Part shown: one piece after another, positions 3-23,052 of the stretch
Numbering within the stretch: position 1 is the first letter of the stretch
Layout of the letters: each line of letters starts with the position of its first letter
Virus record (IMG/VR): IMGVR_UViG_3300028414_000040
Location: 1 to 31,195 of that record
DNA length: 31,195 bases
From: a virus
Strand: one strand, 5' to 3'
Program-made: the position numbers and the translations under genes
The notes under the pieces: generated by a model
What the model was told of the DNA's origin: nothing
Database searches by the model: none
The model's input: only the letters and a program-made list of their open reading frames with translations

Positions 3-3000
3 ATCAGCACAGATGCATCAGCCGATGCACTAGTATTTCCTACTCCTGGTACATTGCCAACAACTAATGCTGTTGAAGCAAAAGATCAACTTATTGCTAA
101 CAAATCTTTTATTGTTAGCGAAATCACAGAATGGATTGCAGTTAACTTTCCAAGTCTGACATATGATAGTGCAAAGTGCGAAAGAGATGTAGGATACATT
201 GTTGATGCTATATGTCATGACATTTTATATGGTGGCAACAGTGCAACTACAACTGTAGCTAACAGCTACTTTGTAGATGGTGTAAGCCAATTAGGAAGCC
301 CAAGCGAAGAAGCAGCAACAGCAGATGCATATGCAAGATTAAAAGACATCATTGGTGATATTGTTATCGAAGCCAGCGTTGTAAAAACTCCTGCTAATGC
401 TTTATCGCAAGATACAGCCGGAACGCCTGCAAGTTCAACTGAATCAGATGATGCCGAAGGCTTAGTACAAATTATCGAAGATGTAATTAGATCAGGCAAC
501 TTAGATAGCCTTCCTGCAATACAAATGCCAGTCATTAGTTGGTCGGCATCAGAAAGACAGCAAGGCTATAATACAATCAAAGGCAATAAAGAAACACTAA
601 AAGAAAATGTTTCGATCTTTATTGCTAATAACTTCCAATCATTTATTTACGATCAAGCAAAATGTGAAAGAGATGTTGGCATTATGATTGATGCAGTGTC
701 TTATGATGCAGCTATCGGAACCAACTACAATAGTGTGACAGCTGGGCTTGCATATCAACGTGCAAACAGTTCGTATGTACTAAGCGGTCAGAATTTACAA
801 ACTGTAAAAGCAATTGAATATTTAAGAGATAGAATTGACGAAGAACTATTTAGATTATCAGGATTGTTTAGAAGCAGAGCTAAAGCAGGTTTCAACGAAA
901 TCTTAGATATTATTAACAATGGTGTAGTAAGCACTGATACAGCAGCAGATACAATTGTATTTCCTGATAGCGGTATTAATGCTAACAATCAACTTGCAGT
1001 GACACAATTGCAACTTAACAGAGAATTCCTAGCAATAGAAACTACTGCCTTTGTGACAAACAACAATCCAAGTTTAGTTTACGATGAAGACAAATGCGCA
1101 AGAGATGTAAGGTACATAGTTGATGCTATTTGTTATGATATTATGTATCCTGGAAATTTAGCAAGTAAACAGGCAGCAGAAAGTTATTATGTAGGCGCAA
1201 CAAGTCAGTTAGGTACCGGACAAAAAGCAGCAACAGTTGCAGCATATGCAGAACTTGCAAATGTAGCATCAGATGTTATTCAAAACATTGCACACGGTAC
1301 ATTAGAACAAACTGGCATTAGTCAAGATGTCACAACAGGAACAGCAGGTGTTATAACAGCAGCAGTTGCAGATAGCTTGATCCAATATGTAGAAGATGTT
1401 GTTAATTCAGAAGACATAAGTGTTCTTCCTGCAGATGACAATACAGACCTTACTTGGACAACTCAGCAATTACAAGATGACTTTGCTCTACTACAAGATA
1501 GTAAAGCTTCGTTGCAAAATAGTGTAATTGATTATATCAACTATACATTTACAAGAAACTTTACATTTGATAGCGTAAGATGTAATAGAGATACAAAATA
1601 TATTGTAGATGCATTAACTTATGATATTTTATATGGCGGTAATGCAGCTACATATCAAGCAGCACAGAGTTATTATGTTGGTGCTTCAAGCCAAGTTGTT
1701 GGACAACAAACTGAAACAGCACAAGCATTGGGATGGGTAAAAACATTACTAGGTAGTGTTTTACTAGATGTATCAGTAAGCGATCCTGAACAAACAGTAG
1801 AAGTTCAAAGCACAGCAGCAAGTGCATCTACAGCAACAGAAGTCACAAGAGCAGAAACATTGCTTCAAATTATACAAGACGTTGTTGAGAATGGTACAGA
1901 TCAATTACCTGAAATAACTTACCCAGATACTACATGGGCAACAGCAGGCGCACAAAGTGCAATTGATAATCTACAAACAGAAAAGTCAACTATTGTAGAA
2001 GGAACAATTACATTCCTAGAAACAACTTACAATGCATTCTCGTACAATCAGGATAAGTGTCGTTCTGATACTGGACAAATTATTGATGCAGTAGCATACG
2101 ATTTGTTGTACACAGGAAACATTGCAACACTGATTGCAACTAGAGCCTATTTCTTAGGAACAGCTAACTATCTACCAGATGAGCAAAAAGATAATACAGT
2201 CGCAGCATATGCACACTTGCAAAGTGTAGTAGAAAGTTGCATTGAAGGTATAGCTGTCACGCCACAAGCAGGTAATACACAACCTCAAGTACTTGGTGGA
2301 GTATACGGCACTGTAGTTGAAAGTACAACTGCACAAAATCTAATTGGTATTGTAAAAGATGCAGTAGATAATCAAACACTAGTTGGAACTCCGTCGGAAT
2401 TAGAAGCTGACTACAGCTGGCTTCCGTTGCTAACAAGAACTACTGCTAGTCAGTTATTTTCTGCAAAAACAAGTATAGCAAATGGTACTATTGATTATAT
2501 TAACACAAGTATACTAGGATTTGATTATAACATAAACAAATGTAAACGTGACACTGGTTATATAATTGATGCAGTCATTTACGATACTATGTATGGAGGC
2601 AACAAGCAATCACGTAGAGCAGGCGAAGCATATTATAGCGGAGCAATATTAAATAATCTTTCTAACACAAACTATGCTAATCAAAGTGATATTACTGCAT
2701 ATTCATATTTTTACTTAGGTGATATTATGAAACAAGTTGCTGCAAACACTCCAGTGACAAAGAGCTTTAATAATTTAGAAAACCAAGTATTCTTAACAAA
2801 TGACGATGCAGATATAACAGTTGGACAAGGCATAGAATTACTAGTAGATAGAGTTGGCCAGGCAGTATTAGAAAATAGTACAGCTGGTTGGCATGAAATA
2901 CCACATAATCACGAACTAGGAAGTAGTGTATATAACAGTATCAGAAATGTATTAGTAGCTGCACAAGATACTATTGCAGATACAGCAACTGATGCACTAA

Positions 3001-3785
3001 ATGCAGAATTTGGTGGCGTAGCTGAAGTTAATATCTTCCCAGGATTAACAAGTGTCACCCAAGACAAAAAAGCAGCATTGTACAATGTTAGTACTATTAG
3101 TACAAGTGGACATGCATTTGAGTATGTTGGTGCAGGTGTCACATATAACGCTCTTCCATTCTTTGGCGGTACTGCTATAGCAGAAAAAGAGATTATTGAA
3201 CGTAATCAAGGTAGAGTATTTGCTGGTGGTACAGTTGACCAAATTGGTAATTTCAGAGTTGGTAATTTCTTTGGCGTAAACGCACTAACAGGTGCTATTA
3301 CACTTAATGCTAACGAAATTGACTTGTCAGGTCTAACCAGTGTTGGTCCGTTTATTAGAGACGGTGTTCCGGTTGGTGTTGAACTAAAAGAGGTTAGCGA
3401 TAACGCAAACTTAGTTGCAAGTATTGGTACACAAGACTTTAACACTGCTCCAACGCAAAAGGCAGTTGCAACATATGTTGAAAACAGATACCTAAACAAA
3501 CTTACAGGCGGCACTGTAAACGGTTCTACAACATTTGAAATCGATGTCACAATAGATGGAACACTTATACTTACAAACAACGACTTAGAAGTACAGTATG
3601 GTGGTACAGGTGTAAGCACATTTACCGAAGACGGTATACTATACGGCGATGTTGCTAATCCGTTGAAAGTCACAGATGCAGCAGGTACAAGCGACACTAG
3701 CGTAAGTTTCCAAGTATTAACAGTCACAGCAGATGACGATGCTACACCAGTTTGGACTGACACATTAGACGGTGGTAGCTTTTAA
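3..3785 (+). CDS. Giant tail-fibre/adhesin-type structural protein with six ~160-residue repeats (5' partial)
   Basis: The frame is open at the left edge from base 3, so the true start lies upstream. The TTG at 54 is not a convincing start because the residues before it match linkers seen between later repeats. 1260 residues are visible. Six repeats carry a core of the form YDxxKCxRDxxxIVDAxxYD; the conserved Cys codons lie at 177, 663, 1095, 1581, 2058 and 2541, about 480 bases apart. After them comes a module (about 3110-3300) with HAFEYVGAG, YNALP, GRVFAGGT and FRVGNFFG, also found in the next gene. The C-terminus has a YGGTGVST..DGILYGD motif like those in repetitive phage fibres. No signal peptide or membrane segment is seen. 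A structural or receptor-contact role is inferred from composition, size and position next to the S74-tailed fibre. No catalytic motif is visible. A baseplate-associated fibre component is equally possible. Confidence 0.75.
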   Translation: MSTDASADALVFPTPGTLPTTNAVEAKDQLIANKSFIVSEITEWIAVNFPSLTYDSAKCERDVGYIVDAICHDILYGGNSATTTVANSYFVDGVSQLGSPSEEAATADAYARLKDIIGDIVIEASVVKTPANALSQDTAGTPASSTESDDAEGLVQIIEDVIRSGNLDSLPAIQMPVISWSASERQQGYNTIKGNKETLKENVSIFIANNFQSFIYDQAKCERDVGIMIDAVSYDAAIGTNYNSVTAGLAYQRANSSYVLSGQNLQTVKAIEYLRDRIDEELFRLSGLFRSRAKAGFNEILDIINNGVVSTDTAADTIVFPDSGINANNQLAVTQLQLNREFLAIETTAFVTNNNPSLVYDEDKCARDVRYIVDAICYDIMYPGNLASKQAAESYYVGATSQLGTGQKAATVAAYAELANVASDVIQNIAHGTLEQTGISQDVTTGTAGVITAAVADSLIQYVEDVVNSEDISVLPADDNTDLTWTTQQLQDDFALLQDSKASLQNSVIDYINYTFTRNFTFDSVRCNRDTKYIVDALTYDILYGGNAATYQAAQSYYVGASSQVVGQQTETAQALGWVKTLLGSVLLDVSVSDPEQTVEVQSTAASASTATEVTRAETLLQIIQDVVENGTDQLPEITYPDTTWATAGAQSAIDNLQTEKSTIVEGTITFLETTYNAFSYNQDKCRSDTGQIIDAVAYDLLYTGNIATLIATRAYFLGTANYLPDEQKDNTVAAYAHLQSVVESCIEGIAVTPQAGNTQPQVLGGVYGTVVESTTAQNLIGIVKDAVDNQTLVGTPSELEADYSWLPLLTRTTASQLFSAKTSIANGTIDYINTSILGFDYNINKCKRDTGYIIDAVIYDTMYGGNKQSRRAGEAYYSGAILNNLSNTNYANQSDITAYSYFYLGDIMKQVAANTPVTKSFNNLENQVFLTNDDADITVGQGIELLVDRVGQAVLENSTAGWHEIPHNHELGSSVYNSIRNVLVAAQDTIADTATDALNAEFGGVAEVNIFPGLTSVTQDKKAALYNVSTISTSGHAFEYVGAGVTYNALPFFGGTAIAEKEIIERNQGRVFAGGTVDQIGNFRVGNFFGVNALTGAITLNANEIDLSGLTSVGPFIRDGVPVGVELKEVSDNANLVASIGTQDFNTAPTQKAVATYVENRYLNKLTGGTVNGSTTFEIDVTIDGTLILTNNDLEVQYGGTGVSTFTEDGILYGDVANPLKVTDAAGTSDTSVSFQVLTVTADDDATPVWTDTLDGGSF
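150..2760 (+). repeat. Six tandem copies of the Lys-Cys/Arg-Asp repeat (first fibre gene)
   Basis: The core motif recurs with Cys codons at 177, 663, 1095, 1581, 2058 and 2541, spaced 486, 432, 486, 477 and 483 bases. Most units have a YGGN-type loop after the core and an aromatic stretch such as YYVGxxSQ (subtype A). The second unit lacks that loop and has GQNLQTVKAIEYL followed by an FNEILDIINNG stretch (subtype B). The residues at the window edge (ISTDASADALVFP) match the tail of a subtype B unit, which implies another copy upstream. The units have diverged in DNA sequence, so they are old duplications. Confidence 0.85.
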
Positions 3786-3803
3786 ATAAGCTACTACCTT
3801 TTC
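3771..3803 (+). terminator. Rho-independent terminator overlapping the end of the first fibre gene
   Basis: An 11-base-pair stem pairs GGTGGTAGCTT (3771-3781) with AAGCTACTACC (3788-3798), with one G-T pair and a six-base loop, followed by TTTTC. The TAA stop codon (3783-3785) lies inside the loop, so coding sequence and terminator are merged. Confidence 0.8.
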
Positions 3804-3809
3804 TCCTAT

Positions 3810-3817
3810 GATAAATA
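3810..3817 (+). promoter_or_regulatory. Candidate T4-type late promoter for the giant fibre gene
   Basis: GATAAATA lies just after the upstream terminator and 78 bases before the ATG at 3895. It matches the NATAAATA box seen before several genes here. A second, weaker box (CCTAAATA, 3874-3881) runs into the strong ribosome site AGGAGG (3881-3886). Transcription start is inferred at about six bases past the box. Confidence 0.55.
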
Positions 3818-3894
3818 AGTATACAACGATTTCTATCGTGAAGTTTTGGGCGTCTACATAGACTTGACCCGTACCTAAATAGGAGGCCGCCTTA

Positions 3895-6800
3895 ATGGCA
3901 ACAAATATTAGACACAAACGAAGTGCGGTTGCAGGAAAGCAACCCATTGTATCTCAACTACAATCTGGCGAATTAGCAATCAACACAGCAGATGGTAAAA
4001 TATTTTTACTACGTGATGATAACACTGTTCAGGATGTAACAAGACGTATTTTTGATAATGACACCGAAGTTGCAATTGACGATAAAGGCGATAGTGCAGC
4101 AGCAGAAATTAACATCAGAGTAAACGGTCAAGACACTGCTCAGTATACAGCAGCTGGTGTAAACTTTTACAATGATATAGATGTTGAGGATGCAAACACA
4201 TTAACATTTAAAGAACTTACAGCGTCAGGTGACGACGGCGTAGGAATTAAAGCACCTGATACATTAGACTCAGGGTACCGTATGACACTGCCTCCGTCAC
4301 AAGGTACCGTAGGACAATTGCTTGCAACAGATGGATTAGGTAATTTATTTTTCCAAGACGCAGACGTATTTGGCGGCAACGTTGTTTATGTTTCACAAGA
4401 ACAAGGCGATGATGCTAACGATGGACAAAGTGCTCCGGTTAAAACTGTTAAAAGAGCCTGTCAAATTGCTTCTAGTTTGGTATACAATAGCGATGGATCA
4501 ATTAATTTTACAAGAGTAAACATTAAGGTTGCGGTTGGCGACTACACAGAAGACAATCCAGTTATTGTTCCTGATAACACAGTTATCAAAGGTGACGGTT
4601 TACGTGGTTGTATTATTCGTCCTGCTAATGCTAACTTGGACATGCTACGTGTTCGTAATGCTTGCTACTTTGGTGAATTTACATTCCGCGACGGAGTTGA
4701 TGACAACTTTATTCCAACTATTACAGCTGACTATGCTGTGGCATTTGATGATCCTTTTGATCCTGTTATTACAGACCGTGCAGACTATCCAAACCTACCA
4801 ACCACAAGACCGACAATTTTTACTTCTCCCTATATTCAGAACGCTAGTATTATTTCGTTCTTAGGTATGAACGGTGCTAAGATTGACGGTGCTAAAGTTG
4901 AATCGCCCAACGTTCCGACATACGGTATTGAGGCTGAGAATCCAGTTGTTGGCGCTATACCTGAACAAGGTAAGTCAATGGTTGCTAACGCCTTTACTAT
5001 CTTGTCATTTGGCGGTACAGCATGGCGACTAACCAACGATGCTTATGCACAGATCGTGTCTTGTTTTGAAATCTTCTTGCTTAACGGTGTTTACTGTCAG
5101 TCAGGCGGATATTGTTCTATTACCAACTCTGCTACTAACTTTGGGTTGTATGCTCTAAGAAGTTCCGGCTTCTCTCCAAAAGCGTTCTCGTTTGATAGAA
5201 GTTTTGTTGCATCAACTGGTCAGGCAGATGGTAAACAAACAATTAGTATTGTTGGTATTAATCGTGAAGCACCAGTTGAAGAATTTGTTTTAAGATTTAG
5301 AGAATCAGAATATAAAATAGCACATGATGTTTTAAAATCAAATAAAGATTTAATTGCAGAAGACACCGTGACATGGATTAATGCACAAATTGCTGCGGCT
5401 TCTCCGAGTATATGGGCTGGGTTTTCTTACAACGAAGATAAGTGCAGAAGAGATGTTAGAAACATTTTAGATGCAATTAGATATGATATTATCTTTAATA
5501 GTAATTATAGAACAGTAAGTGCTGCCTTAAGATACTTTAGTGGTAGCTTTAATGCTGAATTATTTGCTGCGCAAAAAGATCAGCACATTGAATCTTTTAA
5601 TCAAGCAAAAACAATTACAGCAAACTATCTAAGTGATGCAACTGCAACAAGTAGATCAAACGCATTATGGAACGAAGTAATTGATATTATCACCAATGGC
5701 GATGCAAATACTGTTCCTGGAGACGGAGTAGCAGATGCATATGTACGTCCTCTGCCAACTAGCGGTACAGACAATGCAAGCGATGCAGGTTTTGCAAATG
5801 CAGTACAACAATTATTAACAAACAAAACATTTATTACAAAAGAAGTCACTTCTTGGATTTCTACACAAGTCGGTTCTGGTATAGAACCTTTCAGTGAAAA
5901 CTTTATTTACAATGAAGCAAAGTGCGAAAGAGATACAGGACTAATTATTGATGCACTTGTTTACGATTTAACATATGGCGGAAATTTACAAACAACAGTT
6001 GCAGCATTAGCATACTTTATTGATGGTGTACAACAATATGGCGCAGGCCAGTTAGAAGAAACTGTTGCAGCATACGAACGTCTAAAAGAAGTAATTCAAG
6101 AAGTTATTTTAGAAACACCTGTAGCTGTAAGTGCAAGTAATCCTGAAACGCAAGACACAACAGGAACACCGGGTAGTACAGATGCTAGTGATTATGCTGG
6201 CGACAGAATGGATGATATTATTAATTATATCCAAAGTGAAGGCGCTACTGCACCAACTGAAGTATTGCCTGACTTTACTTGGGTATCTGGCAATTCAGAA
6301 TTTACAGCATATAATCAATTAGATTTAGAAGGCCAAATTAACATTGCGCAAAATGTGACAAAATATATCAACCAACAGATACAAACAAACATTTGGTACG
6401 GATTTACTTACGACGATGCTAAGTGTAATAGAGATACACAACTTATTGTCGAAGCAGCGGCACAAGATATTTGGGATACTGGTAATAGATATTCACGTAG
6501 TGCTGGTCTTGCATATTACACAAGAAACTTACAAGATTCGACACAACTTAGTATACAAGGACAAGAATTACAAACTATAGCAGCTATTGAGCAAGCAAAA
6601 GTATATGCGTTAACTTACATTAGCTCATTTTCCGCAGCAGTTCAAGATTTTGCAGGCTCACGTTTTGATATTGTTAATACTATTATTAACGATCCAAAAG
6701 ATTTGCCTGATCCAACTGAAGTAAGCAGTGAAGGTGATATAACTAATGATTTTAAAACAACACCAACTGAAACATTATTTAATGGTGCAACAGCAGTTAA

Positions 6801-9800
6801 CAGTGTCACTGATGTAATTACACTAGTAGGACACGGGTTTGTTAACGGACAAAAAGTAATTTACGATCCAAATGGAAATGCTCCTATTAAAGGATTGGAT
6901 GACGAACAACAGTATTATATTAATTTAATTAGTGAAGACGAATTTAAACTAACCTTTGATGACTCACTTGAATTTCCTGTAAATATTATTGAACCTAGTA
7001 CAGGCACACATAAATTCTTATCAGGTGTTATTGAATTCTTTGTCGAAGAAATTTTAACAAGTCACACAACTTATCAAACACTAGAACTTGAATCAGGTTC
7101 TGAAGGATTTGAATTTGTTCCAGGTAGAACTATTACAGGTACTACAGGCGCAAGTAATAACAGTGCTATTGTTTATAGTTGGGAGCCTAGAAATAGAATT
7201 CTTGTAGTAAGTATTGAAGAAGTAGCTGTAGGACAAAGTTTGCTACGTATTCAGTTTGACGAAACAAGTACTATCGACGAAGATCATGCTTTAACTCCAA
7301 ACACAGTTATAGGCGTAAACGAAGCAGCAGCACGTACTAATCTCGGTACATCTAGTTTTAGTGTCACTGCTACAGATGGTAGTAGTAGCCTAACAAACTT
7401 AATTAACTTACCAGAATCGCAGTGTTGGTTCCACAGACCGTCAGTTGTTAACTCATCATCACACACTTGGGAATACGCAGGTTCTGGTACAGACTATAAC
7501 GCTTTACCACAGAACGGCGGTAATACTAGAACAGAGTACGAACAGTTTGAAGAACTACCAGGGCGTGTTTATTCGTCAGGTACAAACGAACTTGGTGACT
7601 TTAAAGTTGGAGACTTTATTACAGCGTTCAACAGAACTGGTAATATTACATTTAGAAACAAAGTGCAGGTGGACGAGCTTGATGCGTTGAGACTAAGTCT
7701 TAGTGATGTTGCTATTGAAGAAATTTCAACTAGTGTAAACTTAGGTGACGACGAAATTGGTGGTCCAAGTGATGCTAGACTTCCTACACAGTTATCTGTA
7801 CGTTCGTTTATTAGTAATAGACTAGGCGGCTTTGTTGATAAAACAGTTAGTACAGCAGCCGTTCCGGGTGCTATTGTTCAGCTTAATACTAATGGTCAGT
7901 TAAACGCAGACTTGATTCCTGCTACTAGACAGTTTACAAACACAAACACAGATGGGTATCAATCAAGACTTGAACAAGTTGATGACATACCGCCAATTGA
8001 TTTGAAAGCTGGTGACATTGCTACTGAGAACTATGAGCAAGTCGAACTTGCACTTAGTGCTAACTTGTTTAATGCAGCAGACGGTGATATTATTACACAG
8101 CCCGGAGTAGCTGGTGCAACAGGTTATGCCAAAGGCAATTATAATCTAAGTGGCAACGTACTAGTTGTGACCATCGATGGAGCATGGAATGACGAAGATG
8201 ATAGTACCGGCGATCCTTGGGAAGCAAGCGCAGGAAATCTTTTTGTTAACGGAGTAGATTCAGGTGTTAGCATAAGCTCAAAAGGACCAAGTACAGAAAT
8301 TATTGATAACTGGTTCTTGCGTAGTTCTAATTCAAGTCAGTTCTTAAACTTAGATCCAATTCCAGATTATGTGTTTACAAGTGTAAACATTACTACTATT
8401 GAACGAAATAGTAATGTAGCAACAGTGACAACTGATGTAGCACATGATTTACAGATAGGTAATGTAGTACAGGTACTTTGTAATGAAGACGAATCATTTA
8501 ATGAAAACGGTCTTGTTATAAGCACACCAACAAGTACAACATTTACTATGTCAAATGTTGACACAGCAGATCCAACAAAATCAAGTGCAAGTGTCACAGG
8601 TACAACAAGAACTATTGTCACTAGTGCAGACGGTGGTGCTCAAGGTGCTGTGACTGAATATGTTGAAGGAATTGCAGAAAACTTAGACAATGCAAACTTA
8701 GTAGGCGGTAGTGGGTATACTCCGGTGTTGGCTACAGAAACATATCTAAGAGTTCCTTTGCAAGCTAAGACTGGATCGGGTACTGGTGCAAAAGCAGATA
8801 TTACTGTGACAGCAGGTCAAATTACTGATATTGATATTGTAAGAGGCGGTAGCGGTTATGAAGTAGGAGACTTAGTTGAAGTTCTTGCAAGTGATGTAGG
8901 CGGTACTGGTACTGGATTTGAAGTTGAAGTCACTAATGTCGGAAAACGTGTATATGTAAATATTATTGGCGGCGAATTATTTGTTGCAAGTGTCACAAGT
9001 ATTGACTTTGTAGAAGACAATACTGCGGTTGCAACTTCTCGTGATATCAACTTAGACGATGTTATTACTCATAACTTCCTTGCAGGCTTGTCGGGCTCAG
9101 GCGGTTCTGTAAACTATACAGATAGTAGAATTACAATTCCAAATCACGGGTTTGGACAAGGTGATCCGGTAATATATGATTCGCTTGCAAATACTCCAAT
9201 TGGCGGTTTGTTAAATGGATTGACATATTATGTAAAAGTAATTGATGCTGATACTGTAGAACTGTATGAAGGTTTTGCATTATTAAACCAAGCAGAATTT
9301 ACAAGTACACCTGCAAACAACAATCATAATATTACACGTAAGACTGTAAATATAGTTGATAATAGTATTGTTGTTGTAAATCACGGCTTTACAACAGGTG
9401 ATGCTTTCCGTATAGAAAGTTTAACTGACGGATCAAGTGCAAACGAATTACCTACAATTGAAACAGGTGATCCGATTGACAGTGGTTCGAGATTCTTTGT
9501 AGGTTCGGTGACAGACAACTCATTTACTATTCACTCATTACGTAGTGATGCACTTAATAGTATTAACGATCTTGTCACTAATGCTATTGTGATAATTACA
9601 GAAGGTGTAGGTAGCGCAGAAGTTATCCAAAACAACACACAGGTTAACAGTGTTATTAACACTTCTAGTAGATTAATTGAAAACTGGAATACACTGGCTG
9701 TGACAAACATTGACGCAGAAAATATTATTTCTGGTACAGTATCTCCAAGTAGATTAGCATTTAGCGGTGTACCTAATAGTGATACAGCGTTATTTGGTGA

Positions 9801-12800
9801 TAGTAGTTATAAAACTGTAGTACAAAGTTTGAAAAAAGCACCAACTATTGATAACCCAATTAGTTTAACAGGTAATAGTTTAAGTGGTGAGTTCTACGGC
9901 GATCCAGTTAATATCGGTATTAGTAATGTTGATTATGATCCATTAGGAACATTCTCAGGACTAGGTGTTAGTAGATTCTTACAAACACAATTTGATATCG
10001 ACACAGGCGGCAGTGGTCAAGTATTCATCAAAGACGGTGTTGTTGATGCAGGTACACTAGATGGATTAGATAGTGCTTATTTCTTAAATCCGGCTAACCT
10101 TACAAGTCTTGTTCCTGTCACAAAAGGCGGTACAGCACTTGCAACATACAGTGTTGGTGATATTATTTACGCACAATCTGCTGCAAGTTTAAATCAATTA
10201 GGAATTGGTAGAAGAAACAACTTCTTAAAATCAAACGGCGAGGTTCCTGAATGGGGTACTGCACTTGATCTTGCAGAAGGATTGGATATTGGTTCTGCTG
10301 CACTTACATCAAAAAGTACAGGCGCAGGTAGAATATATAACGAAAACGTCACAAGTTTACAAATTGGTGCTGCTGCTACAAATATTACAATGGGTAATGG
10401 CGATGGCCCAAGAGACTTATTTCCGTTTATTGCTAGTTATGAAGCAACTGTTAGTAGAGATGTTGTTATAAATTTTGAAATAACAACTGGTACAACTTCT
10501 GAAGTCACTCAGAACGGTGTAAACGAAGTTATTATGTCTGACACTACTGGCATACTAGCAGGTATGATTGTATCTGGAAGTTCTAGTATTCCTCCTAACA
10601 CAACTGTTAGTGGTGTCACCGACGATGCTATATATCTAAGTGCCGAAACTACAGGTAGTATCTTAACTAGTACAACATTAGGCTTTACCTATACACCATT
10701 TACTTTAGGTATTAACCCAGGCGATACTATTAATATTGGCTCCAGTTCGGTGGCAAACTTAGATGGTACATGGCCAGTAAGTGGTGCAACAGCAAATGCT
10801 ACTTCGTTTACAGTTAGAACAGAGGACCTTGTGACTGCATTAGAAACTGATATTCCAGCAGGCACAAATACTATTAATAACAATCTAGTTTTGAAAAATT
10901 CAAGTATTGTTGTAGGCAATGGAGAAACAAGTGTATCTCCAAGTAATGCTATTATTAAAGGTACAAACGGATTAGGAACGGATGTAGCAGGCGGTGATTT
11001 AACACTACAAGCAGGCATTGGCACTGGTAATGCAACCGGCGGCGACTTTGTTGTTAAAACAGGCGAAACGTCGACTACAAGTGACTTACAGCATACTTCA
11101 ACAGAGCGTATGAGAATTGACACATACGGCGATACTGAGTTAAATGGCTACACTGACTTTACAGATACAACTGCTATTAAAGTACCAGTAGGTACAACTG
11201 CAGAACGTCCAGGTGAATCAGGACAACGTGTTCCTGTCACAACAGGTCAAGTACGTTTTAACTCAAGCGATGTTGCATTTGAAGGATACGATGGCACAGC
11301 ATGGGCTACACTAGGCGGTGTTAAAGATATTGATCAAGATACATTTATCAGAGCAGAAACTGCATCTGGTGATGACAACGATCAACTAGATTTCTTTACT
11401 GCTAATGTACAACGTATGCAAATTGGTGCAACTGGTAATTTAGCATTTGGTGATGGATTGGATAAGTTTACAGTTGCATTTACAACTGGTACTGCAAATT
11501 TTGCAGGCGATTTAGTTGTAGAAGGCGATTTAACAATCAACGGTACAACTACAACACTCGACACTACAACACTAATAGTTGAAGATAAAAACATTGAATT
11601 AGGCAATGTTGCATCACCAACAGATATTACTGCAAACGGTGGCGGCATTACATTGTTAGGTGATACTAATAAAACTATGTTGTATAATGTGACTAATGCG
11701 GCATGGCAGTTTAGTGAAAATGTAAACATTGCTAATGCTAAAGTCTATCGTATTAATAACAGCGATGTTCTTAGTGCAACTACATTAGGATCAGGTGTTG
11801 TAGCATCTAGTCTAACAAGTGTAGGACAACTTGCAGCTGGTAGTATTACTACTAGTTTTGGCGATATCAACATTGGCGCTAGTACATTTACTGGCAACGG
11901 TAGTGGACTTACAACACTAAATGCAAGTGAATTAGATAGCGGAACTGTTGACGGAGCTCGATTAGGCGGCAACCAAAGTATGGCTGGTGTCAAAACATTT
12001 ACTGATACTAGTGCTGCAACAAATACTACAACTGGTGGTGTACGTGTAGGTGGCGGCCTAGGTGTTGCAGGAGATGTATATGCTGGTAGTTTAAATACTT
12101 CAAACGGCAGTGGTATTCAAGCGTTAAATGCAACAAACTTAGGTTCAGGTACTGTTCCAAACGCACGTATTACAGGTACTTATAGCAACTTAACCGGTTC
12201 AGGCGCATTGGATGCAGGCCAGATTACAAGTGGCTTTGGCAATGTTAACATTGGTACAAGCACATTTACTGGTAATGGTAGTGGACTCACTGATGTAGAT
12301 GCAGAAACATTAGATGGTATTAACGGAGCAAGTTTCTTACGTAGCGACGAAGCTGATACAATGACAGCACTACTTACTATGAGTCATGCAGGCGATGAGA
12401 TGATTCGTTTAGCAGACACAAGTGCAAGTGGCTCGCCATACATTAGTTTCTATCAAGCAACAGATCGTAGAGGTTATATACAATACGCAGACAGCGGCGA
12501 CAAGATTCAAATTGTCAACGAAGGTGGTAATACTAGACTCGAAATTGACAACGGATCAACTGGTCTTAAATTTAACGATGGTGCAAATACATACACTGTT
12601 TGGCATGCCGGCAACGACGGCGCAGGCAGTGGACTAAATGCAGACGAGTTAGATGGCCTTAGTAGTGGAAGTTTCATACGTAGCGATGCTAATGATAGTT
12701 TCAGTGGAACAATCACTGGTGCCGGTACTATTGATATTACTGGTAATATTACTGCTAATTCCTTTACAGGTGATGGTAGTGGCTTAACAGGTATTAGTGC

Positions 12801-13539
12801 CGACGATGCTAACACACTAGATGGCATTGACAGTACAGGGTTTATGAGAGTAGGCACTGGCGCACCAGCAGATCAAATCATAGGTAATAGTTCCGATAAC
12901 AATACTAGAGTTCTTAGGCAGCATACAGCTAGTAACAGAAGCAGTAATCTACAACTGCTTGGCGGTATGGGCAGAACCTTAATGGGATCATCTGTTGGAG
13001 GATCTCAAGGATTTGAATGTGCAACTGGTAGCGTCACAGGTGCTGGTGCAGGTGACGGATATTTGGCAATGATATATTCAAATGGCGGCACAGTTACTTG
13101 GACAGCAAGAGCTGCATTTAATCAAAATAACTGGGAATTCAGAGGCGAAGTTACAGCATATGCTTCCGATAAACGATTAAAAAATGTTAGTGGAAATATC
13201 ACAAACGCACTTGATAAAGTAAAATCTCTAAACGGAGTACTTTACACTTGGAACGAAAAGTCAGTAGAACACGGATTTAAAAATGAAATAGATGATAAAT
13301 CCGAAGCAGGATTACTTGCTCAAGAAGTTCAAGAAGTCTTGCCAGAAGTAGTAGTACCAGCACCGTTTGATTATAAAGATGGCAAGAGTGTATCAGGTGA
13401 AGAGTATTTAACTGTTAAGTATGAACGTATTGTACCATTGTTAGTCGAAGCAATCAAAGAAGCAGATACTAAAGCAGAAGCACAAGCAGCAGAGATTGCA
13501 GAACTTCGTGCAATGGTAGAAAAACTACTAGATAAATAA
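3895..13539 (+). CDS. Giant multidomain tail fibre with C-terminal S74 self-cleaving chaperone
   Basis: 3214 residues. The start is set by AGGAGG eight bases upstream. Domains in order: (1) an N-terminal segment with KRSAVAGKQP and LQSGELAINTADGKIF, common in marine phage fibres; (2) a pectin-lyase-like beta-solenoid region from about 160 (YVSQEQGDDANDG) to about 440; (3) three Lys-Cys repeats (Cys near 517, 677, 844); (4) a TWEYAGSG..YNALP module near 1190 shared with the previous gene; (5) small HGF..GD modules and a GGSGYxVGD region between about 960 and 1890; (6) fibre repeats with FTGNGSGLT or FTGDGSGLT near 2665, 2792 and 2957; (7) a C-terminal S74 intramolecular chaperone. The S74 core SDKRLKN has Ser3091 and a Lys five residues later. 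In endosialidase-type fibres that Ser marks self-cleavage after trimerisation, so release of a 124-residue C-terminal piece is predicted. It is probably a trimeric receptor-binding fibre. The exact adsorption role and ligand are unknown. Confidence 0.88.
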   Translation: MATNIRHKRSAVAGKQPIVSQLQSGELAINTADGKIFLLRDDNTVQDVTRRIFDNDTEVAIDDKGDSAAAEINIRVNGQDTAQYTAAGVNFYNDIDVEDANTLTFKELTASGDDGVGIKAPDTLDSGYRMTLPPSQGTVGQLLATDGLGNLFFQDADVFGGNVVYVSQEQGDDANDGQSAPVKTVKRACQIASSLVYNSDGSINFTRVNIKVAVGDYTEDNPVIVPDNTVIKGDGLRGCIIRPANANLDMLRVRNACYFGEFTFRDGVDDNFIPTITADYAVAFDDPFDPVITDRADYPNLPTTRPTIFTSPYIQNASIISFLGMNGAKIDGAKVESPNVPTYGIEAENPVVGAIPEQGKSMVANAFTILSFGGTAWRLTNDAYAQIVSCFEIFLLNGVYCQSGGYCSITNSATNFGLYALRSSGFSPKAFSFDRSFVASTGQADGKQTISIVGINREAPVEEFVLRFRESEYKIAHDVLKSNKDLIAEDTVTWINAQIAAASPSIWAGFSYNEDKCRRDVRNILDAIRYDIIFNSNYRTVSAALRYFSGSFNAELFAAQKDQHIESFNQAKTITANYLSDATATSRSNALWNEVIDIITNGDANTVPGDGVADAYVRPLPTSGTDNASDAGFANAVQQLLTNKTFITKEVTSWISTQVGSGIEPFSENFIYNEAKCERDTGLIIDALVYDLTYGGNLQTTVAALAYFIDGVQQYGAGQLEETVAAYERLKEVIQEVILETPVAVSASNPETQDTTGTPGSTDASDYAGDRMDDIINYIQSEGATAPTEVLPDFTWVSGNSEFTAYNQLDLEGQINIAQNVTKYINQQIQTNIWYGFTYDDAKCNRDTQLIVEAAAQDIWDTGNRYSRSAGLAYYTRNLQDSTQLSIQGQELQTIAAIEQAKVYALTYISSFSAAVQDFAGSRFDIVNTIINDPKDLPDPTEVSSEGDITNDFKTTPTETLFNGATAVNSVTDVITLVGHGFVNGQKVIYDPNGNAPIKGLDDEQQYYINLISEDEFKLTFDDSLEFPVNIIEPSTGTHKFLSGVIEFFVEEILTSHTTYQTLELESGSEGFEFVPGRTITGTTGASNNSAIVYSWEPRNRILVVSIEEVAVGQSLLRIQFDETSTIDEDHALTPNTVIGVNEAAARTNLGTSSFSVTATDGSSSLTNLINLPESQCWFHRPSVVNSSSHTWEYAGSGTDYNALPQNGGNTRTEYEQFEELPGRVYSSGTNELGDFKVGDFITAFNRTGNITFRNKVQVDELDALRLSLSDVAIEEISTSVNLGDDEIGGPSDARLPTQLSVRSFISNRLGGFVDKTVSTAAVPGAIVQLNTNGQLNADLIPATRQFTNTNTDGYQSRLEQVDDIPPIDLKAGDIATENYEQVELALSANLFNAADGDIITQPGVAGATGYAKGNYNLSGNVLVVTIDGAWNDEDDSTGDPWEASAGNLFVNGVDSGVSISSKGPSTEIIDNWFLRSSNSSQFLNLDPIPDYVFTSVNITTIERNSNVATVTTDVAHDLQIGNVVQVLCNEDESFNENGLVISTPTSTTFTMSNVDTADPTKSSASVTGTTRTIVTSADGGAQGAVTEYVEGIAENLDNANLVGGSGYTPVLATETYLRVPLQAKTGSGTGAKADITVTAGQITDIDIVRGGSGYEVGDLVEVLASDVGGTGTGFEVEVTNVGKRVYVNIIGGELFVASVTSIDFVEDNTAVATSRDINLDDVITHNFLAGLSGSGGSVNYTDSRITIPNHGFGQGDPVIYDSLANTPIGGLLNGLTYYVKVIDADTVELYEGFALLNQAEFTSTPANNNHNITRKTVNIVDNSIVVVNHGFTTGDAFRIESLTDGSSANELPTIETGDPIDSGSRFFVGSVTDNSFTIHSLRSDALNSINDLVTNAIVIITEGVGSAEVIQNNTQVNSVINTSSRLIENWNTLAVTNIDAENIISGTVSPSRLAFSGVPNSDTALFGDSSYKTVVQSLKKAPTIDNPISLTGNSLSGEFYGDPVNIGISNVDYDPLGTFSGLGVSRFLQTQFDIDTGGSGQVFIKDGVVDAGTLDGLDSAYFLNPANLTSLVPVTKGGTALATYSVGDIIYAQSAASLNQLGIGRRNNFLKSNGEVPEWGTALDLAEGLDIGSAALTSKSTGAGRIYNENVTSLQIGAAATNITMGNGDGPRDLFPFIASYEATVSRDVVINFEITTGTTSEVTQNGVNEVIMSDTTGILAGMIVSGSSSIPPNTTVSGVTDDAIYLSAETTGSILTSTTLGFTYTPFTLGINPGDTINIGSSSVANLDGTWPVSGATANATSFTVRTEDLVTALETDIPAGTNTINNNLVLKNSSIVVGNGETSVSPSNAIIKGTNGLGTDVAGGDLTLQAGIGTGNATGGDFVVKTGETSTTSDLQHTSTERMRIDTYGDTELNGYTDFTDTTAIKVPVGTTAERPGESGQRVPVTTGQVRFNSSDVAFEGYDGTAWATLGGVKDIDQDTFIRAETASGDDNDQLDFFTANVQRMQIGATGNLAFGDGLDKFTVAFTTGTANFAGDLVVEGDLTINGTTTTLDTTTLIVEDKNIELGNVASPTDITANGGGITLLGDTNKTMLYNVTNAAWQFSENVNIANAKVYRINNSDVLSATTLGSGVVASSLTSVGQLAAGSITTSFGDINIGASTFTGNGSGLTTLNASELDSGTVDGARLGGNQSMAGVKTFTDTSAATNTTTGGVRVGGGLGVAGDVYAGSLNTSNGSGIQALNATNLGSGTVPNARITGTYSNLTGSGALDAGQITSGFGNVNIGTSTFTGNGSGLTDVDAETLDGINGASFLRSDEADTMTALLTMSHAGDEMIRLADTSASGSPYISFYQATDRRGYIQYADSGDKIQIVNEGGNTRLEIDNGSTGLKFNDGANTYTVWHAGNDGAGSGLNADELDGLSSGSFIRSDANDSFSGTITGAGTIDITGNITANSFTGDGSGLTGISADDANTLDGIDSTGFMRVGTGAPADQIIGNSSDNNTRVLRQHTASNRSSNLQLLGGMGRTLMGSSVGGSQGFECATGSVTGAGAGDGYLAMIYSNGGTVTWTARAAFNQNNWEFRGEVTAYASDKRLKNVSGNITNALDKVKSLNGVLYTWNEKSVEHGFKNEIDDKSEAGLLAQEVQEVLPEVVVPAPFDYKDGKSVSGEEYLTVKYERIVPLLVEAIKEADTKAEAQAAEIAELRAMVEKLLDK
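5400..6710 (+). repeat. Three Lys-Cys/Arg-Asp repeats in the second fibre gene
   Basis: Copies have Cys codons at 5443, 5923 and 6424 (spacing 480 and 501 bases). The order is subtype B, A, B: the first and third lack the YGGN loop and end in helical stretches followed by VIDIITNG or DIVNTIIND, while the middle one has YGGN and YFIDGVQQYG. These are the same family as the six copies in the preceding gene. Confidence 0.85.
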
Positions 13540-14188: not shown

Positions 14189-14772
14189 TGCAATTAAGTA
14201 TTTGTGTCCCTGCAGGCGACAAAGTCCACACAGTATTTGCAAAAAGTTTAGCAAATCTAACTAGTCGCTTGACAAAATTATCAATAGACTGGAACTTGCA
14301 CATTGTAAGTAGCAGTGTAGTTTGTGAATCACGTACACAGTTAGCAAAAGAAGCACTGGGCAGTGATGCTACACATTTACTATGGTTAGACAGCGATATG
14401 TACTTTCCAGCAAGTGTTGTATTAGATCTGTTATCTCATAAAAAAGATATTGTTGCTGCAACATATAGCACAAGATACGCTCCGTATCGTAATGTTGCAT
14501 TTACAAATCCAAATGATACAAACGAAAGACTTGATATTAGTAATGGGCTGCATAAAGTTTGGGCAGTAGGTATGGGTTGTATGTTAGTCACACGACAAGT
14601 ATTTGAAGATTTACCCAAGCCTTGGTTTGCACACGAATATAATAAAACTTTAGATACACACAGCGGCGAGGATATATACTTTTGTAATCAAGCAATGCAC
14701 CACGGTTATGAAGTATACGTTGATGCAGATATTAAACTTGCACACATAGGAATAAAGGCTAATCAATTATGA
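14188..14772 (+). CDS. GT-A-fold glycosyltransferase (family 2-like)
   Basis: 194 residues. It opens with a beta strand (LSICVPAGD) and has the metal and nucleotide-sugar motif LWLDSDM (DSD at 68-70), then a helix and DIVAATYSTR. Later come WAVGMGCMLVTRQVF and GEDIYFCNQAMHHGYEVYVDADIKLAHIG, the usual acceptor/catalytic Glu-Asp (161-162) and C-terminal His of compact GT-A enzymes. Such proteins transfer a sugar from a nucleotide-sugar donor in the cytoplasm; the acceptor here is unknown. The gene overlaps the next by four bases (ATGA), so it is coupled to the Met-Phe-Trp repeat protein. Proximity to Ser/Thr/Asn-rich fibres makes virion glycosylation plausible, but DNA or host-surface glycans are alternatives. 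Confidence 0.75.
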   Translation: MQLSICVPAGDKVHTVFAKSLANLTSRLTKLSIDWNLHIVSSSVVCESRTQLAKEALGSDATHLLWLDSDMYFPASVVLDLLSHKKDIVAATYSTRYAPYRNVAFTNPNDTNERLDISNGLHKVWAVGMGCMLVTRQVFEDLPKPWFAHEYNKTLDTHSGEDIYFCNQAMHHGYEVYVDADIKLAHIGIKANQL

Positions 14773-17375
14773 AAGCAATAGATAGATTCGAACGTTTTGG
14801 TAATCCAATGCACAACGGGCAGGATTATTTAAAAAATCATATCTTTGAAAGATATCCAGTTATACACAACAAAACTGAAATATCAGAGTGGCAAGACCGC
14901 AGTAAGTATGTCTGGCTAGTAGATCCAACTTTAAAAGTATACGATAGCTTTCCTTGGTTTTACAGACCAAATAAAAATGATGATGTTGCAATACATGCAT
15001 TTCCTTATGTATTTGAAAAAAGTCGAGATGTAAAGTCGTGGGACATGGTACAACTAGTTCCAACGCAGCCTGGTGATTACGAAATTAAAAAACATGCACA
15101 TATCTGTGGACATTACGATCCTACAATGGGAACAGGCAAGTTTGAAATATTTTATATTGGCAAAGACAAAACTGTTTTAAATAAATTAATTGAAAGAAAT
15201 TTTGATGTACAAGTAGTTGATAATATTACACAAGCTAATGAGCGAAGTTTTACAGATATGTTTTGGGTAGTATACGACGATACTATGATCAGAGATACAT
15301 TTAAATTTAGCTATGTACCAGACGAGTGGAGTTATGATATTCCGCATGTATTTGGAAACGGAGACATTGATCAGTTAGACGGCATTGTACTATTACCAAA
15401 AAAATATAATGCTATTGACAAAGAAGTAAAGCATAGATTTTTTGTAAATAAAAAAGAAGTACGTATTATGGCAAGTAATCCAAAGCCATATGATATTTTT
15501 CAAATAAACAATTATAATGATTATTTAGAAGCCATCGAAAAAACTACTACAGATATGTTTTGGGGTTATAACAATCAAATTATTATACACAGCGATTTTA
15601 ATTTTGATTATTATATTAGTCATCACAGTAGTGATAAAAAATCTAACCATGCATGGCTAAATGGAAATAATTATAATGGTGTGTTTTTGTTTAGTAAAAC
15701 TAAACCTGTATCAGAAGAAGAAATACTTTTTAGAGATATAAAAGAAAAAATTGAACACAACACAATTGCAAGTATGCCTAAAGATTTTGAAAAGTTTAAG
15801 ATAGATACATACGACGAATATAAAAATGCATTAGATGTTTGCAGCAGTGATATGTTTTGGGTTATACCAAATGATGTAGATATTGCCGAAGATTTTACAT
15901 GGGACAAATACTTTCACGATCAAGAATCATTTGATATGAAAACCAATCATGTGTTTCTCAATGGTGAATCATATGACGGTATTGTACTAATGTGTGCAAA
16001 AGCAGAAATCACAGAAAAAGAATTTGAACACAGATTTTATGTAAACAAAAAAGAACACAAAGTTGTAGCAAGTACTCCAAAACCTTATCAGAAATTTACT
16101 ATTGACAGTTATGAAGATTATACCGAAGCACTATATAATTGCAATACAGAAATGTTTTGGAGTGTACCAAGTGATGTAGAAGTTGCTGAAGATTTTGATT
16201 TCAATTTGTACTTTGATCACCATAATACATATGATAGAAATATAAATCATGTATTTCTAAATGGCGAAAACTATGACGGTATTGTGCTGTTTAGTAAAAA
16301 CGTTCTAGTAAGTGAAAAAGAAATTGAGCATAGATTTTTAATTAAAAAGAAAGAACACGAAGTTGTAGCAAGTACACCTAAACCTTATCCTATCTATACA
16401 GTAAACAATTACCAAGATTATTTAAATGCAAAAAAAGATTGCAACTATGATTTATTTTGGATGGTAAATGATAGTTTCTTACCTGTAGACAATTTTGACT
16501 GGAACTTTAATATTACGCATCATAATCAATATGAACGTAAAATTAATCATGTATGGAAAAATGGCGACTACTTTGACGGCATTGCTCTTACTAATAAAAA
16601 ATTAAATATTAGTCAACGTGAAATTGATTATAGATTCTTTGTCACTAAAAAAGAATATAAAGAAATAGGCAGTATGCCCAAGCCTTATGATATTGTGTTT
16701 ATTAGTAATGGCGAACCTAATGCAGATGATAATTTTGATTTATTAAGCGAAACGTTTCCAAGAGCAAAACGAGTTATGGATATCAAAGGCATTCATGCAG
16801 CACATAAACGTGCAGCTGAGTTAGTTGAAACAGACATGTTCTGGGTAGTTGACGGTGATGCAGAAATAATTGACGGATTTGATTTTAATTATTATGTACC
16901 TGCTTATGACATCGATGGTAAAGATACTGTGCATGTATGGAGAAGTTTAAATCCAATTAACGGACTTGTTTACGGATACGGCGGTGTTAAATTATTACCC
17001 ACTAATCTAACTAGAAACTTAGATCAAACTACTACTGACATGACAACAAGTATTAGTGATAAGTTTAAAGGTATAGAAGAAATGAGCAACACAAGTGTAT
17101 TCAACACAGATTCTTTTAGTGCATGGCGCAGTGGATTTAGAGAATGTGCAAAACTTTCAAGTAGAACTATTGCTAGACAAAAAGACGACGAAACAGAATT
17201 TAGATTAGATGCATGGTGTACTCGAGGCGCTGATAAACCATTTGGCAAAGCAGCTATTGCTGGAGCAAAAGCAGGCAGAGCTTTTGGAGAAGACAACAAA
17301 GACAATGCACAAGAGTTGGTAAAAATTAATGATTTTGAATGGTTAAAAGATGAATTTAAGAAATTATATCAATAA
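14769..17375 (+). CDS. 868-residue tandem-repeat protein with Met-Phe-Trp motif, glycosyltransferase-like
   Basis: Repeats carry (T/S)(D/E)(M/L)FW with the Met/Leu at 164, 263, 362, 462, 562 and 690, i.e. spaced 99, 99, 100, 100 and 128. Each unit continues with an acidic stretch, DFxF or similar, then NHVFLNGxxYDGIVL and finally HRFxVxKKE..ASxPKPY. A degenerate seventh unit may start near residue 45 (YVWLVDP). Only the last unit has FWVVDGDAEI with a clean Asp-x-Asp (695-697), like the donor site of GT-A glycosyltransferases; earlier units have N-D, S-D or N-N there. The C-terminal 120 residues (SVFNTDSFSAWRSGFRECAKLSS...RLDAWCTRG) are non-repetitive. The four-base overlap with the upstream glycosyltransferase supports a joint function. 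Enzyme activity is inferred, not shown. A structural repeat protein is the alternative. Confidence 0.6.
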   Translation: MKAIDRFERFGNPMHNGQDYLKNHIFERYPVIHNKTEISEWQDRSKYVWLVDPTLKVYDSFPWFYRPNKNDDVAIHAFPYVFEKSRDVKSWDMVQLVPTQPGDYEIKKHAHICGHYDPTMGTGKFEIFYIGKDKTVLNKLIERNFDVQVVDNITQANERSFTDMFWVVYDDTMIRDTFKFSYVPDEWSYDIPHVFGNGDIDQLDGIVLLPKKYNAIDKEVKHRFFVNKKEVRIMASNPKPYDIFQINNYNDYLEAIEKTTTDMFWGYNNQIIIHSDFNFDYYISHHSSDKKSNHAWLNGNNYNGVFLFSKTKPVSEEEILFRDIKEKIEHNTIASMPKDFEKFKIDTYDEYKNALDVCSSDMFWVIPNDVDIAEDFTWDKYFHDQESFDMKTNHVFLNGESYDGIVLMCAKAEITEKEFEHRFYVNKKEHKVVASTPKPYQKFTIDSYEDYTEALYNCNTEMFWSVPSDVEVAEDFDFNLYFDHHNTYDRNINHVFLNGENYDGIVLFSKNVLVSEKEIEHRFLIKKKEHEVVASTPKPYPIYTVNNYQDYLNAKKDCNYDLFWMVNDSFLPVDNFDWNFNITHHNQYERKINHVWKNGDYFDGIALTNKKLNISQREIDYRFFVTKKEYKEIGSMPKPYDIVFISNGEPNADDNFDLLSETFPRAKRVMDIKGIHAAHKRAAELVETDMFWVVDGDAEIIDGFDFNYYVPAYDIDGKDTVHVWRSLNPINGLVYGYGGVKLLPTNLTRNLDQTTTDMTTSISDKFKGIEEMSNTSVFNTDSFSAWRSGFRECAKLSSRTIARQKDDETEFRLDAWCTRGADKPFGKAAIAGAKAGRAFGEDNKDNAQELVKINDFEWLKDEFKKLYQ
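15216..16980 (+). repeat. Tandem ~300-base coding repeats of the Met-Phe-Trp protein
   Basis: Five units of 99-100 codons plus a longer last unit. Motif codons (Met/Leu) start at 15258, 15555, 15852, 16152, 16452 and 16836. Units three and four are the most alike (VFLNGE, SYDGIV/NYDGIV, VVASTPKPY in both), pointing to a more recent duplication; the outer units are more diverged. Confidence 0.8.
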
Positions 17376-17803: not shown

Positions 17804-19489
17804 TTACAGTGTTATACTCCATGTGCCTCTTGGATAATATCCGTCTATTGCAGTTTGCCAATAATAATTATTCCAGTAGTATTGTTGTCCAGTTGTTATA
17901 TTTGTGACATATGTAGTTTCGTTATTGGTACTACCATCCCAAATAATATCCCATTTAGATCCGTCCCACTCAACTATATCATTTGCATCTGCAACAAAAT
18001 CGCTATTATCTGCATTCTTCCATGCTGCTGCACCGTCTTCATTTAAATTTAAAATATACTTGACTTCGTCGCCTGCATTGTAAGGAACATCTAATGTAAT
18101 TAAGAATTTATCACCTGCATTAGAACCTGTTGCTTCTACAGCTAATCCGTTTACATAAACATTAAAACTTGTGACTGTTTCGTCACCAATACGATCTCCA
18201 AGAGAACTTGATAAAATATTAAAGTCTAAATCGGTATGGATTTTGTTATCACTGTATGTTGCTTCAAAAGTTCTATCAACTTTAAATCCTAATGGCCCTA
18301 ATAATATTATACGTGTACCAACTGTCTTTACACTACTAGGATTAAAATCAATCGGATTAACAATATAATCTATTGTTCCGTCAGTTTTAGTTGGTCCTTC
18401 TATTAGAGTATTGCTAGGTAAAGTATCTGTATCCCAAACTATTTCTATAGTAAAATCATCGCCTGATTTAAGTGCAAACGTTCCTACAACTTCGGTATTT
18501 AATTCTGCTCTACGAATTCTAATTTGACTTATTCCTGGTTGAAATCTTGCAGGTAGTTCAGCTTCTAATATATTCAGCCAATTTACTTCGCCTACACGCA
18601 ATTTTCGATTCAATGCAAGCTGTGCAGTTTCTTCTTGTACAATAATATCAAAGTTTCTATAACTTGTCACAAGAGGGTTGTTAAGATCCAGTCGTCCGTT
18701 TCCAACACTTGCACTACCGTTGGTCACAATTGACCCGTCTGGTAGTACAGTTGTACCACTTACTGCGCCTTGATCTGAATCTGTAGGAGGATTAAATCCT
18801 TCTAAACTAACTGTGCCTTGTTCTGTGTTGAATACACTTGTTATAATATCTGTAATAATTCCTAGTTTTTTAACTTTAGTCGGTGGCGAAATGTATATAG
18901 GTGCAGTAAAGCCAATTGTAGCAACATCAATATCATCTTGTGTTCCTACCGGTATACTTCTACTACTAAAATTTATATCTTCTAAATACAGCGTTGTTAA
19001 ACTTGTCCAATCAACATAGTTGTCTGTTGTTTGAAATTCCAAGTCTGGGTTGAACAGCATAAAGATTTGTTCTAGTATTTGTAGCTTTTGCTCAGTGCTG
19101 GTGCTCCAAACATCTATGTTTATTGCCAGAGTATAAGGAGTAGGATGCAATCTTTCAACAGTATAACCCTTAGCTTGTTGAGATATATAGCTGTTAGTAT
19201 CGCTGTCAAATTCTTTTTCACGTAAGTTTATTTTACTAACAAAACTACTATCACTAAGTCTTGCTCTGTCCATTTGTAAACTAGTAATATAAACACCAAT
19301 ACGTGGAGCACTTGGCAGCTTGTTTTCTGAATTTTCTCTTATAATACTACCGACTTGTCTTGTAATATCTCCATACATGCACGGAACTCTTGTTAAATCG
19401 CCATCGCCGTCTTGATAACTAAAGTTGCTAAACACTCTAATTATTTGCGTAAGGTATCTACGTATTTGTCCATCATAAAAAAACTGCAT
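17804..19489 (-). CDS. gp15: Tail terminator / sheath stabiliser, T4 gp15-like, with long C-terminal extension
   Basis: The N-terminus reads MQFFYDGQIRRYLTQIIRVFSNFSYQ..RVPCMYGD, matching the T4 gp15 pattern FY..RRY..LFSN..RVP.Y. Further family features are PSAPRIGVYIT, a YTVERLHPTPYTLAINIDVW stretch, LQILEQIFMLFNPDLEFQTTDNYVDW, and SSRSIPVGT..APIYISPPTKVKKLG. In T4, gp15 (272 residues) caps the tail tube and locks the sheath so the head can join. Here the protein is 561 residues; about 300 extra residues follow the conserved part and end with WNNYYWQTAIDGYYPRGTW. The start overlaps the gp14 stop by one base (TAATG). Family placement rests on these motifs; the function of the extension is unknown. 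Confidence 0.82.
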   Translation of the reverse strand: MQFFYDGQIRRYLTQIIRVFSNFSYQDGDGDLTRVPCMYGDITRQVGSIIRENSENKLPSAPRIGVYITSLQMDRARLSDSSFVSKINLREKEFDSDTNSYISQQAKGYTVERLHPTPYTLAINIDVWSTSTEQKLQILEQIFMLFNPDLEFQTTDNYVDWTSLTTLYLEDINFSSRSIPVGTQDDIDVATIGFTAPIYISPPTKVKKLGIITDIITSVFNTEQGTVSLEGFNPPTDSDQGAVSGTTVLPDGSIVTNGSASVGNGRLDLNNPLVTSYRNFDIIVQEETAQLALNRKLRVGEVNWLNILEAELPARFQPGISQIRIRRAELNTEVVGTFALKSGDDFTIEIVWDTDTLPSNTLIEGPTKTDGTIDYIVNPIDFNPSSVKTVGTRIILLGPLGFKVDRTFEATYSDNKIHTDLDFNILSSSLGDRIGDETVTSFNVYVNGLAVEATGSNAGDKFLITLDVPYNAGDEVKYILNLNEDGAAAWKNADNSDFVADANDIVEWDGSKWDIIWDGSTNNETTYVTNITTGQQYYWNNYYWQTAIDGYYPRGTWSITL

Positions 19490-20643: not shown

Positions 20644-20648
20644 ACATA

Positions 20649-20663: not shown

Positions 20664-20680
20664 CTGTATGGAGAACTTTG

Positions 20681-22493: not shown

Positions 22494-22505
22494 TATAGTT
22501 AGTGT

Positions 22506-23009: not shown

Positions 23010-23052
23010 CTACGCACTTAACCCCTTAAAAAGCCCGTTTTCCACCAGATCT

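Follow-up and report, generated by a model that had tools for sequence, protein, structure and literature searches.

Two tail-fiber genes with a shared repeat

The window analyzed here is an entire public virus record, IMGVR_UViG_3300028414_000040, of 31,195 bases. It opens with two neighboring tail-fiber genes, gene 1 (its 5′ end lies outside the record) and gene 2, which together hold nine copies of a repeated unit in two subtypes, A and B. Our results suggest that the units adopt the fold of phycobiliproteins, the light-harvesting proteins of cyanobacteria, with which they very probably share a common ancestor. The features of the two genes are as follows (profile values are expectation values, E, per domain; ORF, open reading frame; pLDDT, predicted local distance difference test score).

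3..3785, + strand: gene 1, tail-fiber protein of 1260 amino acids, 5′ end open at the window edge (ORF list; PHROG)
3..47, + strand: ISTDASADALVFPTPG, read as what is left of a preceding B unit, since it matches the tail of the next one (534-965), VSTDTAADTIVFPDSG
57..530, + strand: first unit of gene 1, an A unit whose Cys is encoded at 177 (profile E 7.5e-57; AlphaFold2 pLDDT 96.5, predicted phycobiliprotein fold)
534..950, + strand: second unit of gene 1, a B unit whose Cys is encoded at 663 (profile E 1e-39; model pLDDT 87.9)
969..1448, + strand: third unit of gene 1, an A unit whose Cys is encoded at 1095 (profile E 4.3e-47)
1443..1931, + strand: fourth unit of gene 1, an A unit whose Cys is encoded at 1581 (profile E 1.1e-48)
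1929..2408, + strand: fifth unit of gene 1, an A unit whose Cys is encoded at 2058 and which has CRSD in place of CxRD (profile E 3.2e-47)
2418..2909, + strand: sixth unit of gene 1, an A unit whose Cys is encoded at 2541 (profile E 2.5e-36)
2853..3488, + strand: module 3′ of the gene 1 units, also found in gene 2 (BLASTP)
3895..13539, + strand: gene 2, giant tail fiber of 3214 amino acids (ORF list; PHROG 5342, E 1e-185)
3895..5295, + strand: N-terminal part of gene 2, before the units (tblastn, 278 phage records)
5302..5736, + strand: first unit of gene 2, a B unit whose Cys is encoded at 5443 (profile E 4.2e-36)
5773..6279, + strand: second unit of gene 2, an A unit whose Cys is encoded at 5923 (profile E 2.3e-49)
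6301..6729, + strand: third unit of gene 2, a B unit whose Cys is encoded at 6424 (profile E 1.5e-26)
7228..7821, + strand: the module of 2853..3488 as it occurs in gene 2 (BLASTP)
13165..13353, + strand: Peptidase_S74 domain, an intramolecular chaperone, close to the C-terminal end of gene 2 (PF13884, E 8e-13; score 48.9 bits, cut-off 22)

Gene 1 matches the PHROG tail-fiber families 5342 (E 8e-61) and 4527 (E 3e-57). Gene 2 carries both marks of a tail fiber, a match to a fiber family and a C-terminal S74 chaperone. When the whole proteins were compared with Pfam, no family was matched apart from S74.

The original prediction, made from the letters of the window, had counted six units in gene 1 and three in gene 2. 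All nine were recovered by a profile built from related viral units, with the window and near-identical contigs left out (E 7.5e-57 to 1.5e-26); no match was reported when the two proteins were shuffled 50 times. The subtype order proposed at the time, (B)-A-B-A-A-A-A in gene 1 and B-A-B in gene 2, also holds, as does the bracketed B unit, which is implied by its tail at the edge of the window. The supposed near-constant spacing of about 480 bases is true only loosely: the units are 144–167 amino acids long (432–501 bases), and the B unit of gene 1 occupies just 432 bases. In gene 1, the YGGN loop that was said to mark subtype A has Pro at its second position in unit 3 (YPGN) and Thr in unit 5 (YTGN), and the KCxRD core has SD for RD in unit 5 and Arg for Lys in unit 4. 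Cys and Asp of the core are present in all nine units and Arg in eight.

That the fibers are modular, built by duplication and by exchange between genes, is supported by the alignment of blocks between them. Residues 1–306 of gene 1 align with residues 607–933 of gene 2 (35% identity), and the module that follows the six complete units of gene 1 (residues 951–1162) recurs at residues 1112–1309 of gene 2 (30%, E 2e-15, BLASTP). Related phage ORFs hold between 1 and 15 units with the Cys core, mostly spaced by 135–165 residues.

Predicted fold of the units

We modeled one A unit with AlphaFold2, using 126 viral units as the alignment and no templates. The prediction is confident (pLDDT 96.5; predicted template modeling score 0.92), and by this prediction the phycobiliprotein-like fold of subtype A is established. 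In a Foldseek search of the PDB, the best 30 matches are all phycobiliproteins, from cyanobacteria, red algae and cryptophytes, followed by globins. The matches have a probability of 1.00 over about 155 columns, template modeling (TM) scores of 0.46–0.60 by query length and, among the best, identities of 16–22%. Independent models of tail proteins from the phages S-PM2, S-WAM2, S-CAM1, S-H9-1 and S-ShM2, deposited in BFVD, also hold a phycobiliprotein-like domain. The earlier statement that no named domain is known for the repeat is therefore not supported for the A unit, which combines the predicted fold with the bilin-attachment motif of this family.

In phycobiliproteins, the N-terminal X-Y helices serve subunit pairing. 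These helices are not present in the A model, where residues 1–14 are coil and the first helix spans residues 15–24.

Sequence relationship to phycobiliproteins

From viral contigs we gathered 509 non-redundant units; the set used for alignments and profiles comprised 126. In this set PF00502 (Phycobilisome) is matched by 19 units, with a best E of 1.3e-5, and the runner-up family by four. The NCBIfam model of phycocyanin alpha matches gene 1 (E 1.1e-5), and phycocyanin also ranks at the top of the PDB for a profile of the nine window units. Searched against all PDB sequences, the 126-unit profile gives 12 matches at E ≤ 10, and 11 of these are phycobiliproteins (best E 0.0033), with two helices in register. 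A type IV pilin chain, second in this search (E 0.016), was set down to chance, as it is a single match outside the core. Among 20 whole cyanobacterial genomes the same profile has four weak matches, two of them in phycobiliprotein genes.

The reverse comparison agrees. A profile of cyanobacterial phycobiliproteins finds 83 domains of at least 8 bits in viral ORFs, nearly all of them in units, and none in reversed decoys. Some units align with it over most of the domain (residues 34–156 of 161), and about 33 of 161 B units match at E < 0.01. Profile–profile comparison with hhalign gives E 9e-6, against 0.011 for the best of 150 column shuffles.

A putative ligand pocket

The Cys, Arg and Asp of the units correspond to phycocyanin Cys84, Arg86 and Asp87 and lie within the Lys-Cys-x-Arg-Asp motif of helix E. 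In phycocyanin, Arg86 and Asp87 hold the bilin. The GG turn lies 18–19 residues past the Cys in both. Across the 509 non-redundant units, conservation is 92% for Cys, 89% for Arg and 96% for Asp.

Where the Cys is lost (42 units, 35 of which have Phe, Tyr or Trp instead), other residues are lost with it. Arg falls from 95 to 14%, Asp from 100 to 48% and Thr90 from 94 to 31%, and Lys43 and Tyr74 are also dropped. D58, the GGN turn and Q120 are unchanged, and overall identity is equal. On a tree from which the pocket columns were excluded, the Cys changes 21 times, giving 17 independent pairs for sign tests. In these, Arg follows Cys 13 to 0 (p 0.0002), Asp 8.5 to 0 (p 0.004) and Thr 7.4 to 0.2 (p 0.016); Tyr reaches p 0.06. 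The controls N64, A54 and Q120 do not follow Cys in the independent pairs (p 1). Because Cys, Arg, Asp and Thr are lost together while the residues of the fold are kept, these residues appear to belong to one functional pocket, so that the unit probably binds a small molecule. That this ligand is a bilin is a tentative inference.

Distribution among phages and co-occurrence with CpeT

A single A unit, searched against 50,697 phage records, finds units in 176. These are Synechococcus phage, Prochlorococcus phage and ‘cyanophage’ records, together with one marine single-cell virus. No units were found in T4, KVP40, HTVC008M, phiM12, P-SSP7, P-GSP1, Syn5, Ma-LMM01, S-CRM01 or P-SSM2. P-HM2 has four units and S-PM2 nine. 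The units sit in fiber genes and, in P-HM1, P-HM2 and S-RIM2, in the gp7 baseplate wedge; the giant gp7-like wedge proteins of P-HM2 and S-RIM2 embed a unit that in part reads C-x-D-D.

The T4-like marine cyanophages offer the closest known fibers (PHROG 5342/4527; ‘T4-like GC 830’ in S-PM2), which share with the window the repeated units, the flanking modules and the fiber annotations. Many of these isolates also encode CpeT, a T-type bilin lyase of the CpeT/CpcT family, which is not homologous to the units. Units occur together with CpeT in 28 phage genomes. Among 20 marine T4-like and related cyanophages, 12 have both units and CpeT, two have units only, none has CpeT only and six have neither. 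The two thus agree in 18 of 20 phages (one-sided Fisher's exact test, p ~7e-4, computed by hand with kinship ignored). CpeT is often encoded beside the unit-bearing fiber gene: it lies about 1 kb upstream in S-RSM4, S-CAM1, S-WAM2 and S-H9-1, and does not adjoin the fiber gene in P-HM1, P-HM2, Syn9, P-SSM4, P-RSM4 or S-RIM2. In S-H9-1 the frame just upstream of the fiber gene (NC_070961, 32008–32511; E 4e-43 to the CpeT family) is unannotated. A general linkage between units and CpeT is ruled out by unit-bearing metagenomic contigs that are free of CpeT.

The phage that carries the fibers

The window phage is a mosaic of a jumbo-phage body and a cyanophage-type fiber. Its tail sheath, its tail tube and another virion protein (19489–28435) are nearest to those of the jumbo phages Atu_ph07, Phosso and PA5oct, and in this 121Q/PA5oct/Atu_ph07-like sheath and tube it differs from the T4-like cyanophages. 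The unit was looked for in Atu_ph07 and PA5oct and not found. The fiber genes match cyanophages only, in 83 and 278 records, with a highest identity of 57% (Synechococcus phage DSL-LC03). For the N-terminal part of gene 2, the 278 records found by tblastn are cyanophages and eight marine single-cell viruses. Because the fiber genes match cyanophages, a cyanobacterial host is likely on sequence grounds, and the combination suggests a jumbo cyanophage.

Several neighboring genes deserve mention. The tail sheath gene (23075–26359) is unusually long at 1094 amino acids, with jumbo-phage sheaths nearest. A protein of 868 amino acids (14769–17375), without matches in Pfam or PHROG, has several repeats of about 100 residues with ‘DMFW’ and ‘HVFLNGENYDG’ motifs and adjoins a glycosyltransferase-like gene. 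Amid the structural genes lies a gene for a small TnsA-like endonuclease (28809–29246). A protein with weak likeness to 2-oxoglutarate (2OG)-Fe(II) oxygenases (29243–29782) is of a type also seen near the fiber genes of S-CAM1 and S-H9-1.

Discussion

Our results place the repeat of these two fiber genes beside phycocyanin, phycoerythrin and allophycocyanin (PF00502). The predicted fold of the A unit, its length of about 160 residues, the Lys-Cys-x-Arg-Asp of helix E and the GG turn all agree with these proteins, in the same register. Globin-domain proteins such as DosC come second among the fold matches, but the Cys-x-Arg-Asp motif is a trait of phycobiliproteins. Nevertheless, the units are not phycobiliproteins proper: they have a short first helix and no N-terminal assembly helices, they lie outside any phycobilisome operon and those of the window stay below the Pfam cut-off. 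Phycobiliproteins are encoded by separate alpha and beta genes in such an operon, whereas the units stand in tandem within single chains of two fiber genes. The viral B subtype furthermore has no GGN turn, and pigment in the viral units is putative.

The explanation that we hold to be probable is that the units are phycobiliprotein-like (globin-type) beads of the tail fiber, with a pocket that takes up a tetrapyrrole in the infected cell. The units would descend from an ancestor of the cyanobacterial light-harvesting proteins, having kept the helix-E site and lost the N-terminal helices used in phycobilisome assembly. They would then have multiplied and been swapped between fiber genes. As the fiber is made inside the infected cell, each bead could take up a linear tetrapyrrole (bilin) via its conserved Cys, with Arg and Asp holding the bilin. 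The loaded beads would be part of the fiber shaft that reaches the host.

A number of observations weigh against this explanation. The window units match a well-described domain at the level of fold and remote homology, yet none reaches the Pfam gathering cut-off for PF00502 (14.1 against 22.2 bits). With the 22-residue core masked, the hhalign signal is gone (E 0.67); common descent hence rests on the core and the predicted fold. The model of the B unit has no significant match in the PDB, the best being phycocyanin at E 2.4. In phycocyanin, Arg93 binds a propionate of the bilin; the units have Asp at this position. Many units of Prochlorococcus phages and of gp7 have C-x-D-D and not C-x-R-D. 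No CpeT, psbA or hli is found in 15–16 large unit-bearing metagenomic contigs related to the window, and the named members of the 121Q/PA5oct/Atu_ph07 jumbo group, whose body the window phage has, infect Proteobacteria. Given this body and the CpeT-free contigs, a supply of bilin in the host of the window phage is hypothetical. Finally, the known target of T-type lyases is the Cys-153 site and not Cys-84 (PMC10452541).

The main rival is that the beads are purely structural. The fold would be an ancient acquisition that serves as a stiff helical spacer, with the pocket empty or filled by side chains and Cys-x-Arg-Asp kept for packing. This is a serious possibility, though we rather doubt it. 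It fits the occurrence of units in contigs in which no bilin gene was found and in a phage whose body is not that of a cyanophage, and it fits Cys-free units (with Phe, Tyr or Trp) that stand beside Cys units in one array. Moreover, bilin loading of the units is putative. From packing alone, however, one would not expect Lys43, Arg46, Asp47 and Thr90 to be released jointly upon loss of the Cys while the rest of the fold is conserved. One could also argue for convergence, that is, for an unrelated helical repeat that shares the 22-residue motif with phycobiliproteins by chance. The concentration of the sequence signal in the core and the moderate TM-scores would be compatible with this. But the motif, its position in the helix and the fold of the whole domain all coincide, phycobiliproteins rank first in Foldseek across the whole PDB and the alignment of some units extends far beyond the core, so that we consider convergence very unlikely.

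If the beads do carry a bilin, as we propose, the fibers might also respond to light. S-PM2, with its nine units, is reportedly the phage that Jia and colleagues tested in 2010. Light-dependent adsorption to the S-PM2 host WH7803 is reported in the title of their paper (Jia et al. 2010, cited in PMC7238727). P-HM2, with four units, has near-zero modeled adsorption in the dark, and P-SSP7, which has no units, is indifferent to light (PMC7112961). These are only three phages, however, and P-SSP7 belongs to another family; light dependence may also have a cause on the host side. Furthermore, phycobiliproteins act as antennae rather than switches, and this pocket is not known to undergo a photocycle. 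That bilin-loaded fibers gate adsorption by light is thus highly improbable. Unlikely, too, is the full picture in which marine cyanophage fibers are chromoproteins, with beads that bear covalent bilins in the virion, a phage CpeT that serves them and a pigment that contributes to light-dependent adsorption in some cyanophages. Any light function of the units is speculative.

The use of a phycobiliprotein fold in tail fibers appears to be undescribed; in the literature that could be searched we found no paper that names the link. It connects the fold of a host antenna protein with the viral structure that makes contact with the host. The cyanophage bilin lyase CpeT, whose role during infection is a matter of speculation only (PMC10452541, PMC2984593), gains a candidate substrate in the units, and the units bear on the question of whether pigment borne by the virion underlies light-dependent adsorption. 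Even without pigment, proteins of host photosynthesis would have been reused as building blocks of viral fibers. If our explanation is true, the fibers of many viruses of ocean cyanobacteria may consist of, and perhaps be colored by, borrowed antenna modules.

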